The notes beneath the pieces were generated by a model. The model was not told the DNA's origin and made no database searches. It saw only the letters and a program-made list of their open reading frames with translations. From Lysinibacillus louembei (GTDB lineage: Bacteria > Bacillota > Bacilli > Bacillales_A > Planococcaceae), in contig NZ_CP137624.1 of assembly GCF_033880585.1 (NCBI RefSeq), positions 3,383,501 to 3,447,500 of the forward strand: a DNA stretch of 64,000 nt, in the 5' to 3' direction. Made by a program: the position numbers and the translations under genes. Shown here piece by piece: positions 7,353 to 34,876 of this stretch (position 1 is its first letter; every line of letters begins with the position of its first letter).

Positions 7353-7425
7353 TTTATTCCACATTTTTCGAGATTTATTCCACGTTTTCGAAAGTTTATT
7401 CCACGTTTTTTCAGTTTTATTCCAC
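7353..7425. repeat. Four-unit array with exact 21-nt period before recO
   Basis: The word TTTATTCCAC starts at 7353, 7374, 7395 and 7416, exactly 21 bases apart; the 11-base spacers are variable and T/A-rich. In the transcription direction of recO each unit reads GTGGAATAAA. The array lies between the era terminator and the recO ribosome binding site. Confidence 0.85.
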
Positions 7426-7448
7426 GTTTCCCCCAATGTAAGCAAAAG

Positions 7449-7475
7449 AAACTCCCACATTGCAGCGGGAGTTTT
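7449..7475 (-). terminator. Terminator after era
   Basis: Inverted repeat AAACTCCC / GGGAGTTT with a 10-base loop, directly after the era stop codon. The downstream side on the minus strand is TTTCTTTT. Confidence 0.7.
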
Positions 7476-7483
7476 CATTTTCC

Positions 7484-8401
7484 TTAATATTCATCCTCGC
7501 GGAAGCCAAAGTCACGTAAATGTGTTTGCTTGTTGCGCCAGTCTTTTTGTACCTTTACCCAAAGCTCTAAATAAACTTTTGAGCCAAGTAGCATCTCGAT
7601 ATCTTTGCGTGCTAATGTGCCGACTTCCTTCAACAATGCACCACGTTTGCCGATAACGATGCCCTTTTGCGAATCGCGCTCAACCATGATTGTTGCTTGT
7701 ACACGAATCATATTTTCATTTTCTTCATCGCGCTTAATTTTATCAATGACTACTGCAATTGAATGTGGAATTTCCTCACGTGTTAAATGCAATACTTTTT
7801 CGCGAATCAGCTCGGAAATAATAAAACGCTCTGGATGGTCTGTCACTTGGTCTGCTGGATAATATTGCGGCCCCTCTGGTAAGTACTCCTCCAGCTTCGT
7901 TAGTAAGTTTTCAACATTGTTCCCTTGTAATGCGGAAATTGGCACGATTTCGCTGAAAGGGTATTTATCTTTATACGATTCAATAATCGTAATAAGCTCA
8001 TCTGGGTGGACTTGGTCGATTTTATTAATTACTAAAAAGACAGGCGTTTGATTGCCCGCTAAAAGCTCTAAAATAAATTCGTCCCCTTTGCCGATTTTTT
8101 GCTCAGCATTGACCATAAATAAAATAACATCGACTTCACGCAATGTATTTTTTGATACTTTTAACATAAATTCGCCTAGCTTATGCTTTGGCTTATGAAT
8201 GCCTGGTGTATCGATAAAAATCATTTGCGAATCGTCCTGTGTCAGCACGCCTTGCACTTTATTGCGCGTCGTTTGTGGCTTATCTGACATAATTGCGATT
8301 TTCTGCCCAATTACACGATTTAAAAATGTTGATTTCCCTACATTTGGTCGGCCAATAATGGAAATAAAGCCCGATTTATAGGGATTGTTTGCTTGCTGCA
8401 T
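7484..8401 (-). CDS. era: GTPase Era
   Basis: Essential GTPase that binds 16S rRNA and assists 30S subunit maturation. The 305 residues carry GRPNVGKST (G1), TTRNK (G2), DTPG (G3), NKID (G4) and a C-terminal KH domain with [15 protein letters not shown]. The ATG lies inside the end of cdd, giving a 26-base overlap; the ribosome binding site GGAGG stands eight bases upstream within cdd, so the two genes are translationally coupled, as in related Bacillales. Confidence 0.97.
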
Positions 8402-8795
8402 AATCTAAATCCTCCGTTGTGAATGCACCTGGTAACAGCTCACCAACTGTTGTTTCTTGTACATCACCTTTTAAGTTGGTTAAATAAACAGGCATGTCTG
8501 GTGCAAAAAATTCGCTCATTACTTGGCGACATGCACCACATGGAGAGCAAGGCTTATCCGTATCTGCAACGATTGCAATTGCTTTGAATTTTTTAACGCC
8601 TTCTGATACCGCTTTAAAAATAGCTGTTCGCTCTGCACAGTTTGCCATGCTATATGCTGCATTTTCAATGTTGCAGCCTAAATAAACTGTGCCATCCTCC
8701 GCTAATAGCGCTGCACCTACTGGGAATTTTGAATAAGGTACATACGCCTTTTGACGTGCTACCTTTGATTGTTCCATTAATGTATTTTTATCCAT
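8376..8795 (-). CDS. cdd: Cytidine deaminase
   Basis: Homotetrameric cytidine/deoxycytidine deaminase of pyrimidine salvage, 139 residues. The zinc and catalytic motifs are intact: NCAERTAIF (Cys and the proton-shuttling Glu) and [10 protein letters not shown]. It lies 23 bases after dgkA and overlaps era by 26 bases. Family length and neighbours match B. subtilis Cdd. Confidence 0.95.
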
Positions 8796-8818
8796 TCCTT
8801 TTGCCTCCTCTAACTACA

Positions 8819-32393: not shown

Positions 32394-32420
32394 AAAAAGC
32401 GAGGATTTCTCCTCACTTTT
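32394..32420 (-). terminator. Terminator after the UvrA-like gene
   Basis: Stem AAAAG-N-GAGGA / TCCTC-N-CTTTT with a 4-base loop and minus-strand tail TTTTTTAT, seven bases after the stop codon. Confidence 0.8.
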
Positions 32421-32426
32421 CTAAAA

Positions 32427-34679
32427 CTAGCTTATTGCAGTTAAATGCTTCGCTGTAATTGAACGCTCACAATTTATGATATTTGCTGGTGGTCCTTCAT
32501 ATAAAATTTCACCGCCACCAATTCCACCTTCTGGACCCATATCAATAATCCAGTCGCTATGGCGAATTACATCTAAATTATGTTCAATAACAATAACCGT
32601 GTTTCCTTTGTCAACAAGTGTATTCATAATATTTAAAATTGTCGCTACATCTGACATATGTAAGCCTGTTGTTGGCTCATCTAAAATATATAAATTGCCC
32701 TTCGTTGACATTTCCTTCGCGAGCTTTAAACGCTGGCATTCCCCGCCTGACAAAGTGTTAAGTGGTTGTCCTAGCGTTAAATAGGATAAGCCTACCGTAT
32801 TTAAGCTTGTTAATTTGCGCTTAATATCCTTCGCCTCGAAAAATTCTACCGCCTCTGCTACAGTCATATCCATTACATCGACAATATTTTTATCTTTATA
32901 CGTGTATTGTAGCACTTCTTGTTTATAGCGTGTTCCATTACATTGTGTACATACAACCTCAGCTTTATCCATAAACGATAAATTTAATTCTACCGTTCCT
33001 GTACCACCACAGCTTTCACAGCCACCCGTTGAATTATAGCTAAACAGCCCTGCATCTACCCCATTGGCATCAGAAAAGGCTTTGCGAATGGAATTCATCA
33101 CGCCTGTATAGGTCAATGGGTTTGAGCGACTATTTGCATGGACAGCACTTTGATCGATGCGAATGGCCTCAGGATATTTTTTTGCAAACACTTCATGTAC
33201 AAGCGTGCTTTTTCCTGAGCCAGCTACACCAGTAACCGCCGTCAATACACCTGTTGGCACTCGCAAGCTAACATTTTTCAAATTGTGCAATGTGCTTTTG
33301 TCACTCTCTAAAAATTCGGTAGCAGGACGTGGATTCGCTTTGATTGTTGCTTCCGATTTTAAATATTGTGCCGTTAGCGTATCTGCTTTTAACAGCTCCT
33401 CGTAGCTACCACTAAACATAATTTGCCCACCATGTGAACCAGCAGCTGGACCAACATCAATCACATGATCTGCAATTTGAATGACATCTGGGTCATGCTC
33501 TACAACTAAAACCGTATTACCTTTATCGCGTAGCTTAATAAGCAAATCATTTAAGCGATAGACATCGTGTGGATGCAAGCCTGTACTCGGCTCATCAAAA
33601 ATATAGATTAAGCCTGTTAAATTGCTTGATAAATATTTGACCATTTTTACACGCTGCGATTCCCCACCTGATAATGTTGGCATTTCGCGCGTTAACGTCA
33701 TATAGCCAAGCCCGATATCGCATAAGCTTTGCAGTCTTTCTGTAATTCCTACAACTAGCTCCTTTGCTAAAGGCTCTTCAATTTTTTGCAAAACTGCCAT
33801 CAATTCATCTAGCTGCATCGCCGTCATATCATAAATCGAATGACCTAAAATTTTTGAAGAAAGCACTTGCTCATTATAGCGTTTACCATCGCATGTTGGG
33901 CAGCTACACATCGTTGTAAATTGCTCTAATTTACTTGCGGCCGCCTTTGTTGTATCTTTATCCGTTTTGACATTTTGGCGCATAAACTTTACTGCAATAC
34001 CTTCATAAGTGGCATTTATTTCGCTGTTTTGATACGTTACTGTTACTTTTTGCGGCTCTGCATACATTAATTGATGCAGCTCTTGCTCGGTGTAATCTTG
34101 TATTTTTTTGTCATTGTCGAAGAAGCCTGATTCTGCATATGCCTTCCATTGCCACGTGCCTACACCAAAGCCTGGTAGCAAAATAGCTCCGTCATTTAAT
34201 GATTTTTCTTTATTTAATGTTGTGTCGATGTTCAATGTGATAATTTTACCAATGCCTTCACATTGCAAACACATGCCGCTCGGATCATTAAAGGAATAAG
34301 CATTTCCATAGCCGATGCTCGGCGTAGCAAAGCGTGAAAATAATAGTCTTAACAGTGAATTGATATCTGTTGCAGTGCCTAATGTTGAACGTGCATTACC
34401 ACCGAAGCGCTTTTGGTCAACGACAATCGCTGTCGATAAATTATGAATTGCATCCGCCTCAGGTCTGCGGTATTTTGGCAAAAATGTGCGGACAAAGCTA
34501 CTATACGTTTCATTCAATTGACGCCCTGCTTCTTGCGCCACTGTATCAAAAACGATAGATGATTTTCCTGAACCTGATACCCCTGCGAAAACAGTGAGTT
34601 TCCCTTTCGGAATTTGCAGGCTAACATTTTTCAAATTGTTTTCTCTCGCATTGACAATTTCAATATACGTTTGCTCCAT
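32427..34679 (-). CDS. UvrA-like ABC-class ATPase (excinuclease subunit A paralogue)
   Basis: Soluble protein of 750 residues with two ABC ATPase modules. Walker A motifs are GVSGSGKSS and GVAGSGKST; signatures are LSGGESQR and LSGGECQR; zinc-finger cysteines occur as CLQC, CPTC, CESC and CTQC. It is about 190 residues shorter than housekeeping UvrA, mostly in the N-terminal part where the UvrB-binding domain lies. It thus belongs to the UvrA2/DrrC-like group linked to resistance against DNA-binding drugs or to damage tolerance. Function beyond that is not certain. Ribosome binding site AAAGGAGG. Confidence 0.88.
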   Translation of the reverse strand: MEQTYIEIVNARENNLKNVSLQIPKGKLTVFAGVSGSGKSSIVFDTVAQEAGRQLNETYSSFVRTFLPKYRRPEADAIHNLSTAIVVDQKRFGGNARSTLGTATDINSLLRLLFSRFATPSIGYGNAYSFNDPSGMCLQCEGIGKIITLNIDTTLNKEKSLNDGAILLPGFGVGTWQWKAYAESGFFDNDKKIQDYTEQELHQLMYAEPQKVTVTYQNSEINATYEGIAVKFMRQNVKTDKDTTKAAASKLEQFTTMCSCPTCDGKRYNEQVLSSKILGHSIYDMTAMQLDELMAVLQKIEEPLAKELVVGITERLQSLCDIGLGYMTLTREMPTLSGGESQRVKMVKYLSSNLTGLIYIFDEPSTGLHPHDVYRLNDLLIKLRDKGNTVLVVEHDPDVIQIADHVIDVGPAAGSHGGQIMFSGSYEELLKADTLTAQYLKSEATIKANPRPATEFLESDKSTLHNLKNVSLRVPTGVLTAVTGVAGSGKSTLVHEVFAKKYPEAIRIDQSAVHANSRSNPLTYTGVMNSIRKAFSDANGVDAGLFSYNSTGGCESCGGTGTVELNLSFMDKAEVVCTQCNGTRYKQEVLQYTYKDKNIVDVMDMTVAEAVEFFEAKDIKRKLTSLNTVGLSYLTLGQPLNTLSGGECQRLKLAKEMSTKGNLYILDEPTTGLHMSDVATILNIMNTLVDKGNTVIVIEHNLDVIRHSDWIIDMGPEGGIGGGEILYEGPPANIINCERSITAKHLTAIS

Positions 34680-34711
34680 GGAAGTTCCTCCTTTAAAAGT
34701 GATGCTTTCTA

Positions 34712-34740
34712 ACTTTAGCGTAAGTTGAAAGAGATGGCAA
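34712..34740 (-). promoter_or_regulatory. Probable promoter of the UvrA-like gene
   Basis: Minus-strand -35 TTGCCA (34740-34735) and -10 TAAAGT (34717-34712), 17-base spacer, followed by a small inverted repeat AACTT/AAGTT over the -10 region. Confidence 0.45.
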
Positions 34741-34783
34741 GAATGAGCTAGAGAAAAGCTGCGTGAATTTTTAGAGGGATTAT

Positions 34784-34876
34784 TTATCTGCGATTTTTAA
34801 AAATATATCTGCGTTTTACGTAGAGTTATCTGCGAAAATTGCTAGGTTATCTGCGAATTTCTAGCACTTATCTGCG
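34784..34876. repeat. Five-unit array with exact 21-nt period before the UvrA-like gene
   Basis: The word TTATCTGCG (second unit ATATCTGCG) starts at 34784, 34805, 34826, 34847 and 34868, always 21 bases apart, with variable AT-rich 12-base spacers. Together with the terminator and promoter on its sides this fills the 303-base gap 34680-34982. In 34877-34942 only degenerate relics such as TTGCTGCG are seen. Confidence 0.9.

Follow-up and report, generated by a model that had tools for sequence, protein, structure and literature searches.

STAR elements are dispersed intergenic repeats in which a short motif recurs in tandem with locus-specific spacers and a strain-variable unit number, and their function and mechanism of spread are reported as unknown (PMC3532100). 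They are described with a single 14-bp GC-rich motif, T(G/A/T)TGTTG(G/T)GGCCC(C/A), with at least 40 bp between motifs (PMC3532100). The Escherichia coli gyrase motif is described as showing a phased 10-bp G/C variation, and its sites are concentrated behind strongly transcribed operons and in BIME-2 (PMC6379681). The dispersed non-coding satellites of prokaryotes, with long repeats, are presented as rare and as found in only two species (Leptospira and Methanocella) (PMC6749651). This study describes arrays of short words repeated in tandem at a pitch of 20-21 bp in Lysinibacillus louembei, three of which lie in a 64,000-nucleotide stretch of contig NZ_CP137624.1. The window, meaning this whole stretch, covers positions 3,383,501-3,447,500 of a 3.96-Mb single-contig genome. 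A RecO that is 100% identical to the one in a named record places the source genome in Metasolibacillus, which is the genus meant in all counts below, and Lysinibacillus was counted as a separate genus.

Arrays of the window and their pitch in the genome

A sequence-only reading of the window had reported three arrays in which every start-to-start step is exactly 21 bases, and all three were reproduced by reading the window sequence, each on the minus strand. Array 1 (class A, 4 units of 21 bp, 7353..7426) lies 17 nt before the recO start codon and holds the word TTTATTCCAC at 7353, 7374, 7395 and 7416, identical in 4/4 units; in the transcription direction its unit is ACRTRGAATAAA followed by about 9 nt, the last three being AAA. 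Array 2 (20398..20470) belongs to class C, has the sense word TTGAGCGAATT and comprises four 21-bp units; it lies between an EutM-like and an EutD/PduL-like gene and reads TTCGCTCAAC, TTTGCTCATC, ATCGCTCAAC and TTCGCTCAAC at 20398, 20419, 20440 and 20461, which confirmed the word variants named earlier; its orthologues have 4 units in genome G002 and 5 in genome G003. Array 3 (34784..34876), of class B with the sense word CGCAGATAA, has five 21-bp units between mtaB and a uvrA-like gene and holds TTATCTGCG at 34784, 34826, 34847 and 34868 and ATATCTGCG at 34805. After one 18-bp step, three degenerate units spaced 21 bp apart follow on the same strand (34887..34936), namely TATCAAGG at 34887, CATCGGCG at 34908 and TATCAGTA at 34929.

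With Tandem Repeats Finder, array 1 scored 103 and array 2 scored 65, both at period 21, and array 3 was missed. Exact three-copy 7-mer chains with steps of 10-40 gave 11 start positions at 21 and one at 17 in the window, and a 6-mer list assigned the period-21 chains to arrays 1 and 3. The arrays were not produced by chance, since no array of three exact 7-mers at period 20/21 appeared when the 64-kb window was simulated 40 times with a second-order Markov model, nor did any array of three near-identical 8-mers at 21.

The genome-wide spacing scan, a test set beforehand, showed enrichment at 20-21. The own-genome sample comprised 60 stretches of 20 kb and the window (1.264 Mb), and with genes not masked, three-copy arrays of near-identical 9-mers numbered ten at period 20, fourteen at 21 and eighteen at 40-42, with one or two each at 15, 18, 24, 28, 30, 35, 36 and 39, and none at 19, 22 or 23. 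The intergenic arrays of the genome occupied 25 rows at 23 places (1.26 Mb); the strict array detector catches arrays 1 and 3 and misses array 2, and array counts are lower bounds. The words, given in the purine-rich direction, were ACRTRGAATAAA for class A, TTGAGCGAATT for class C and CCGATAGAAT for class D, plus rarer words, while class B comprised CGCAGATAA, mostly at period 21, and CGCAAATAA, found at period 20 in long arrays that carry 40-nt higher-order repeats. One CGCAAATAA array (locus L058) runs to about 50 units with interruptions. A likeness of the class A word to the DnaA box was noticed.

Steps between neighbouring words 12-64 apart were tallied across the genus on distinct sequences only. 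Class A steps were 21 in 31/33 cases, class C steps were 21 in 29/32 and 42 in 2, and GGGCGAA steps were 21 in 18/23 and 42 in 5. The 181 class B steps were divided among 20 (89), 21 (60) and 40-42 (21), with 19 and 22 once each. The words had earlier been taken as locus-specific; the classes proved common to many loci of the genome, and what stood is that a locus may hold a different class in another species. At locus L041 (11197), GTGATCGAATAG in this genome corresponds to GGGCGAATC/GGGCGGATT in G003. The mtaB-uvrA-like locus holds TATCTGCG here and in G003 and TATC[AG]GCG in G004, while no array was seen there in G001. At locus L042 (16796), five spacers pair one-to-one with those of G003 and 4/5 words have changed from GAGC to GGGC.

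Unit structure, helical rhythm and change among relatives

The unit is constrained outside the word too, since every class shows a 21-bp profile that includes a second A/T block. Period-21 arrays had 3-5 units (63-105 bp) in 39/47 rows. Spacer identities within and between arrays were 0.61/0.65, 0.47/0.44 and 0.48/0.55, and the likeness within arrays equals the expectation from column composition. Because two spacers of one array resemble each other no more than spacers from different arrays of the same class do, the units are either anciently diverged or were not copied from their neighbours, and the pitch is intact either way. The A/T autocorrelation of the arrays rose to peaks at 10-11 and 21 and fell to troughs at 5 and 15-16, a rhythm absent from 1291 control intergenic pieces, and the fixed phasing of two helical turns proposed by the sequence-only reading stands.

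The RNA phasing also proposed found no support in folding, which was at shuffle level (mean z 0.15 and 0.09 on the two strands of 59 arrays), and the window had no match in Rfam 15 at gathering score. An RNA hairpin with the word in its loop was tried, some spacers being complementary by eye, and was rejected as folding was no better than in shuffles. The reading of 21 bases as seven codons fell away because period 20 is common in one class and the arrays sit between genes; a coding tandem repeat was ruled out by position (59 rows intergenic, 6 within called genes set aside) together with that common period.

Arrays were present in close relatives; their absence there had been named by the sequence-only reading as a sign against it. 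Between the two strains of the species (14 loci), seven arrays differed by whole units (-21, -80, -21, +21, -21, -42 and +42), four were of equal length, and L060, L079 and L086 aligned with gaps of other kinds within the array or next to it. Indels were common in the aligned flanks, with 73 in the accepted G003 comparisons and 12 in those with G002.

Class A arrays occurred in 5/5 genus genomes. The class B pattern was found in 27/261 family genomes and 6/19 genera, with one match of its backwards control (G020). The class C pattern was found in 10/261 family genomes and 6/19 genera, and since its backwards control gave 28 matches in seven genomes (six of genus g17 and one of g8), lone class C hits in g17 need care. 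The control word ACTCGCTT recurs at the same spacing in g17 genomes (G177, G179, G207 and G217), up to 13 times in one, and may be another word class.

A 1.2-Mb sample of nine genomes (two of the genus and seven from five other genera) held intergenic arrays at period 21 in 28 rows, 20 in 9, 40-42 in 18 and other periods of 13-45 in 4, where a single array may score at both 21 and 42. Arrays at 20-21 thus dominate the intergenic tandem repeats of the sampled genera, while repeat rows inside genes had a period that was a multiple of three in 30/32 cases. Some of these stretches were picked for pattern hits, which inflates array density and should leave the period preference unaffected. In another order, one of five stretches of 15 kb held a TATCGACCA array at 21, with a stop codon on one side and a terminator-like hairpin on the other, and its word, ATCGACCA, occurred at 20-21 in 11/81 genomes and 4/25 genera of that family (one genus through a single match), with no match of the reversed control in the 81 genomes. 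No array at 20-21 was found in G103 or in the second G294 stretch, and the G253 period-20 hit and the G294 pattern hit fall within called genes.

Contigs of G003 (C17, C32, C37, C45, C58, C60 and C170) and G104 (C57 and C177) start in or within a few bases of word arrays, which suggests that arrays break short-read assemblies and are hence under-counted. In G197 (L138, 8338-11950), two copies of a gene labelled by eye as IS256-type-like transposase lie between TATGAGCG array pieces, and from the sequence they look as if inserted into the array, with array pieces duplicated.

Genomic position and possible explanations

Genes were called with a custom codon-score script, and gene starts are approximate. 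The 59 intergenic array rows with two flanking genes comprised 24 convergent rows, which stand for 20 distinct gaps, along with 2 divergent and 33 tandem rows; L086 accounts for three convergent rows, L145 and L186 for two each and L147 for two tandem rows. The 917 background gaps of at least 120 bp were distributed as 115 convergent, 212 divergent and 590 tandem. Arrays therefore prefer convergent gaps and shun divergent ones. By the purine rule, tandem rows were 20 sense, 7 antisense and 6 unassignable. Among 17 class A arrays classified, nine were convergent and uninformative for orientation, one had no called downstream gene and several were mutually orthologous; in tandem gaps, class A was sense in 6/7 arrays, two of them orthologues.

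With origin and terminus taken from GC skew, class A ran with replication in 9/9 other class A matches, and a class A array at L044 whose neighbours are antisense also follows replication. Class B did so in 100/100 pairs among those listed (14 loci), 23 further pairs being unlisted, while class C had no replication orientation (1/4 followed in the own-genome sample). With these numbers, the strand preference of classes A and B relative to replication cannot be told apart from an effect of transcription, and no conclusion is drawn from it. At L094 (G000), a further tandem repeat, TTAAAGCCGGAGAGCTTTAAGTTTTGCATGCGACGAGGATGGC..., adjoins a class A array, and G001 has it in the orthologous flank as well.

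In the window, array 1 lies between era (7484..8401, minus strand) and recO (6562..7335, minus strand). The sequence-only reading had put a terminator ahead of every array. For array 1 this held, as the terminator scanner found an intrinsic terminator after era, just upstream of the array (7449..7474, minus strand). For the other two the scanner found none on the minus strand, and hairpins were seen by eye: GGGGCTTGT/ACAAGCCCC with a weak T-run (20484..20514, minus strand) after the EutM-like gene, and a terminator-like hairpin with T8 (34951..34975, minus strand) after mtaB. Since some class A arrays elsewhere begin at the stop codon, ahead of a hairpin, and others come after a terminator, the rule is better stated as a place past the end of a gene. 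Array 2 is flanked by the EutM-like microcompartment shell protein gene upstream (20530..20817, minus strand) and the EutD/PduL-like phosphotransacylase gene downstream (19769..20353, minus strand, start codon picked by eye), and array 3 by mtaB upstream (34983..36341, minus strand) and a UvrA-like ATPase gene of 750 amino acids downstream (32427..34679, minus strand).

A lone class A word, CATGGAATAAA (3479..3489, minus strand), lies in a convergent gap where the relative at L022, a 'Bacillus ndiopicus' record, has a 4-unit class A array. In that same gap (3430-3524), next to the word, the same-species record L003 has an insert of about 6.9 kb and M. meyeri (L004) one of about 4.1 kb. In the L022 record the sequence right before recO is unlike era and the array is missing there. 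About 33 bases at the recO 3' end (6562-6596, GTGCCTGGCACACAAACAATTCTGAAAATT) have ten other genomic matches on both strands, and RecO here has 257 amino acids, of which many Lysinibacillus relatives align over residues 1-245 only; the C-terminal tail of RecO therefore seems to derive from a dispersed repeat.

The arrays are read here, with a probability of about 0.45, as helically phased protein-docking DNA elements at the ends of transcription units that evolve as a minisatellite. A DNA element gripped on one face is favoured because the pitch is constant, the spacers have diverged, a 10.5-bp rhythm is present, RNA structure is lacking and the arrays lie past gene ends. Phasing is further supported by indels that are frequent in the flanks yet leave the pitch intact, and by the same pitch in other genera and another order, a constancy that would point to selection on the pitch. 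Predicted curvature was also slightly above that of column-permuted arrays (9/59 past the 5% tail, Kolmogorov-Smirnov p 0.003). A unit would span two helix turns (20-21 bp), with a 9-12 bp word and a weaker A/T block about 10.5 bp away, and successive units would present the same helix face. A DNA-binding protein could then lie along 3-5 units, either as head-to-tail copies of a sequence-specific protein or as a wrapping protein, such as gyrase or an HU-like protein, helped by a sequence-specific one, and the bound array might separate neighbouring or convergent genes as a local boundary, topological or transcriptional. Slippage between words would change copy number, which would make the array a minisatellite as well.

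Several observations weigh against this reading, in which the docking protein itself is inferred. L060 and L086 (2/14 G002 loci) show non-unit gaps, and 17/19 in-array gaps against G003 were not whole units, in repeat alignments that are uncertain. Substituted sites numbered 7/455 in words and 68/870 in spacers against G002 (one long array contributing 45 of the 68), and 23/211 and 55/296 against G003, so that words are only moderately more conserved than spacers, with a word mask that favours conservation. Arrays at a given locus are gained and lost between species. Lysinibacillus, Solibacillus, Kurthia and Caryophanon had no array at 20-21 and one at 42 in 21 loci (409 kb), which, like the five 15-kb stretches from other families, were not picked for hits. 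Long period-20 arrays, such as the one of about 50 units at L058, would drift off the helical face along their length at 10.5 bp per turn. The curvature signal was obtained with hand-entered parameters and with arrays that are not independent within one class.

A selfish dispersed satellite like REP or STAR, in which an enzyme copies the arrays, they are tolerated away from promoters and the enzyme itself sets the 20-21 bp ruler, is rather unlikely. It would explain why one word class recurs at many loci of a genome, and the era-recO array has nine further partial or full matches there, including an array at 581 kb that matches it at 92% over 77 bp, across the array and not the flanks. A tolerated insert would likewise shun divergent gaps, and class A and B arrays are oriented along replication, a trait of some single-strand transposition systems. 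On the other side, class C lacks that orientation, the unit spacers within an array are unrelated, and no gene resembling a mobile element was seen by eye, with no family search, beside five large own-genome arrays, the transposase-like genes of G197 being the case of such genes between array pieces. A reach of 20-21 nt by type IIL restriction enzymes, considered as a candidate ruler, was dropped as it offers no mechanism. Strong gyrase sites of the BIME-2 kind, where phased 10-bp G/C variation would serve wrapping at places where positive supercoils accumulate, are improbable. The arrays show both the rhythm and the location that this analogy calls for, and the A/T autocorrelation, with its peak at 10-11 and dips at 5 and 15-16, has the phased 10-bp variation of a strong site. 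Nonetheless, equal words within an array are left unexplained, most period-21 arrays (63-105 bp) do not reach the 130-bp length taken for the motif, palindromes are absent, and the pitch is 10.0-10.5 bp instead of 10.75. A sequence-specific tiled protein accounts for the equal words better than a gyrase version of docking.

A neutral minisatellite, with tandem copies created by slippage and a pitch under no selection, is already hard to hold and quite improbable; the whole-unit differences at 7/14 loci between two strains and the 40-nt higher-order repeats of long period-20 arrays agree with it, but it fits poorly with spacers that are unrelated yet constant in length, with one pitch shared by unrelated words in different genera and orders, and with the near absence of other intergenic periods. 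An RNA element of the 3' untranslated region, acting in stability or termination and read by an RNA-binding protein, is very improbable. The sense orientation of class A in tandem gaps, the excess of sense over antisense rows by the purine rule and the arrays between stop codon and terminator would suit it. The folding at shuffle level, the lack of an Rfam match in the window, a fixed 21-nt pitch that is unexpected for unstructured RNA, the occurrence of class C in both orientations and the arrays that come after a terminator speak against it.

The docking reading may be widened into a new class of chromosomal element of Bacilli, in which a diversifying protein family would read different words with the same 20-21 bp tiling and mark transcription-unit ends, a tentative claim on the doubtful side. 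The sweep from GAGC to GGGC through an array with orthologous spacers could then be the trace of a switch of cognate protein. The first interpretation as a whole was partly supported. If the arrays are docking sites, they reveal naturally how the ends of genes are marked or insulated in bacteria, and if they are selfish, they represent a satellite system that has a molecular ruler and whose words change together. Why the pitch is kept while the words are free is a question open to bench testing under either reading.

Comparison with known repeat systems

LytTR-type operators, such as those of AgrA, are 9-bp direct repeats with a 12-13 bp spacer, and plasmid iterons are 20-22 bp. By analogy, the arrays may resemble them as short direct repeats about two turns apart and bound on one face; those systems lie at promoters or origins, whereas the arrays shun divergent gaps and sit past gene ends. 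CRISPR repeats are about 23-50 nt with longer spacers, a form not shared by the arrays, with words of 8-12 nt at a pitch of 20-21. REP/BIME elements are extragenic, avoid divergent promoters and lie at 3' ends, and the arrays show the same avoidance (2/59 rows in divergent gaps against 212/917 background gaps). However, REPs are palindromic, while the arrays are direct repeats without a hairpin signal (folding z 0.15 and 0.09 in 59 arrays). The arrays are intergenic and interspersed as BIME-2 is, and BIME-2 are gyrase sites, the gyrase motif having phased G/C (PMC6379681). They also resemble dispersed satellites, described as non-coding tandem repeats copied around the genome (PMC6749651), and differ from them in holding a constant pitch of 20-21 bp with changing words in many genera.

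STAR is the nearest known system in architecture, since the arrays too are intergenic, dispersed and tandem, with a strain-variable unit number, but the tests of motif and spacing fail. The exact STAR motif was found in 0/284 loci, and the window had one match with 2 mismatches against 2.74 expected by chance. Array words are 8-12 bp and differ by class and species, and steps of 20-21 fall short of the spacing of at least 40 bp between STAR motifs. No description of such arrays was found in a search of one open-access full-text collection for such arrays, the genus and known kinds of repeat, judged by titles and abstract starts, and the remark of the sequence-only reading that no known repeat family could be recognised agrees with these comparisons with STAR and REP/BIME. 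The arrays fall within the interspersed intergenic repeats, and a pitch that is kept while the words differ by place and species suggests an unrecognised DNA element gripped on one helix face.

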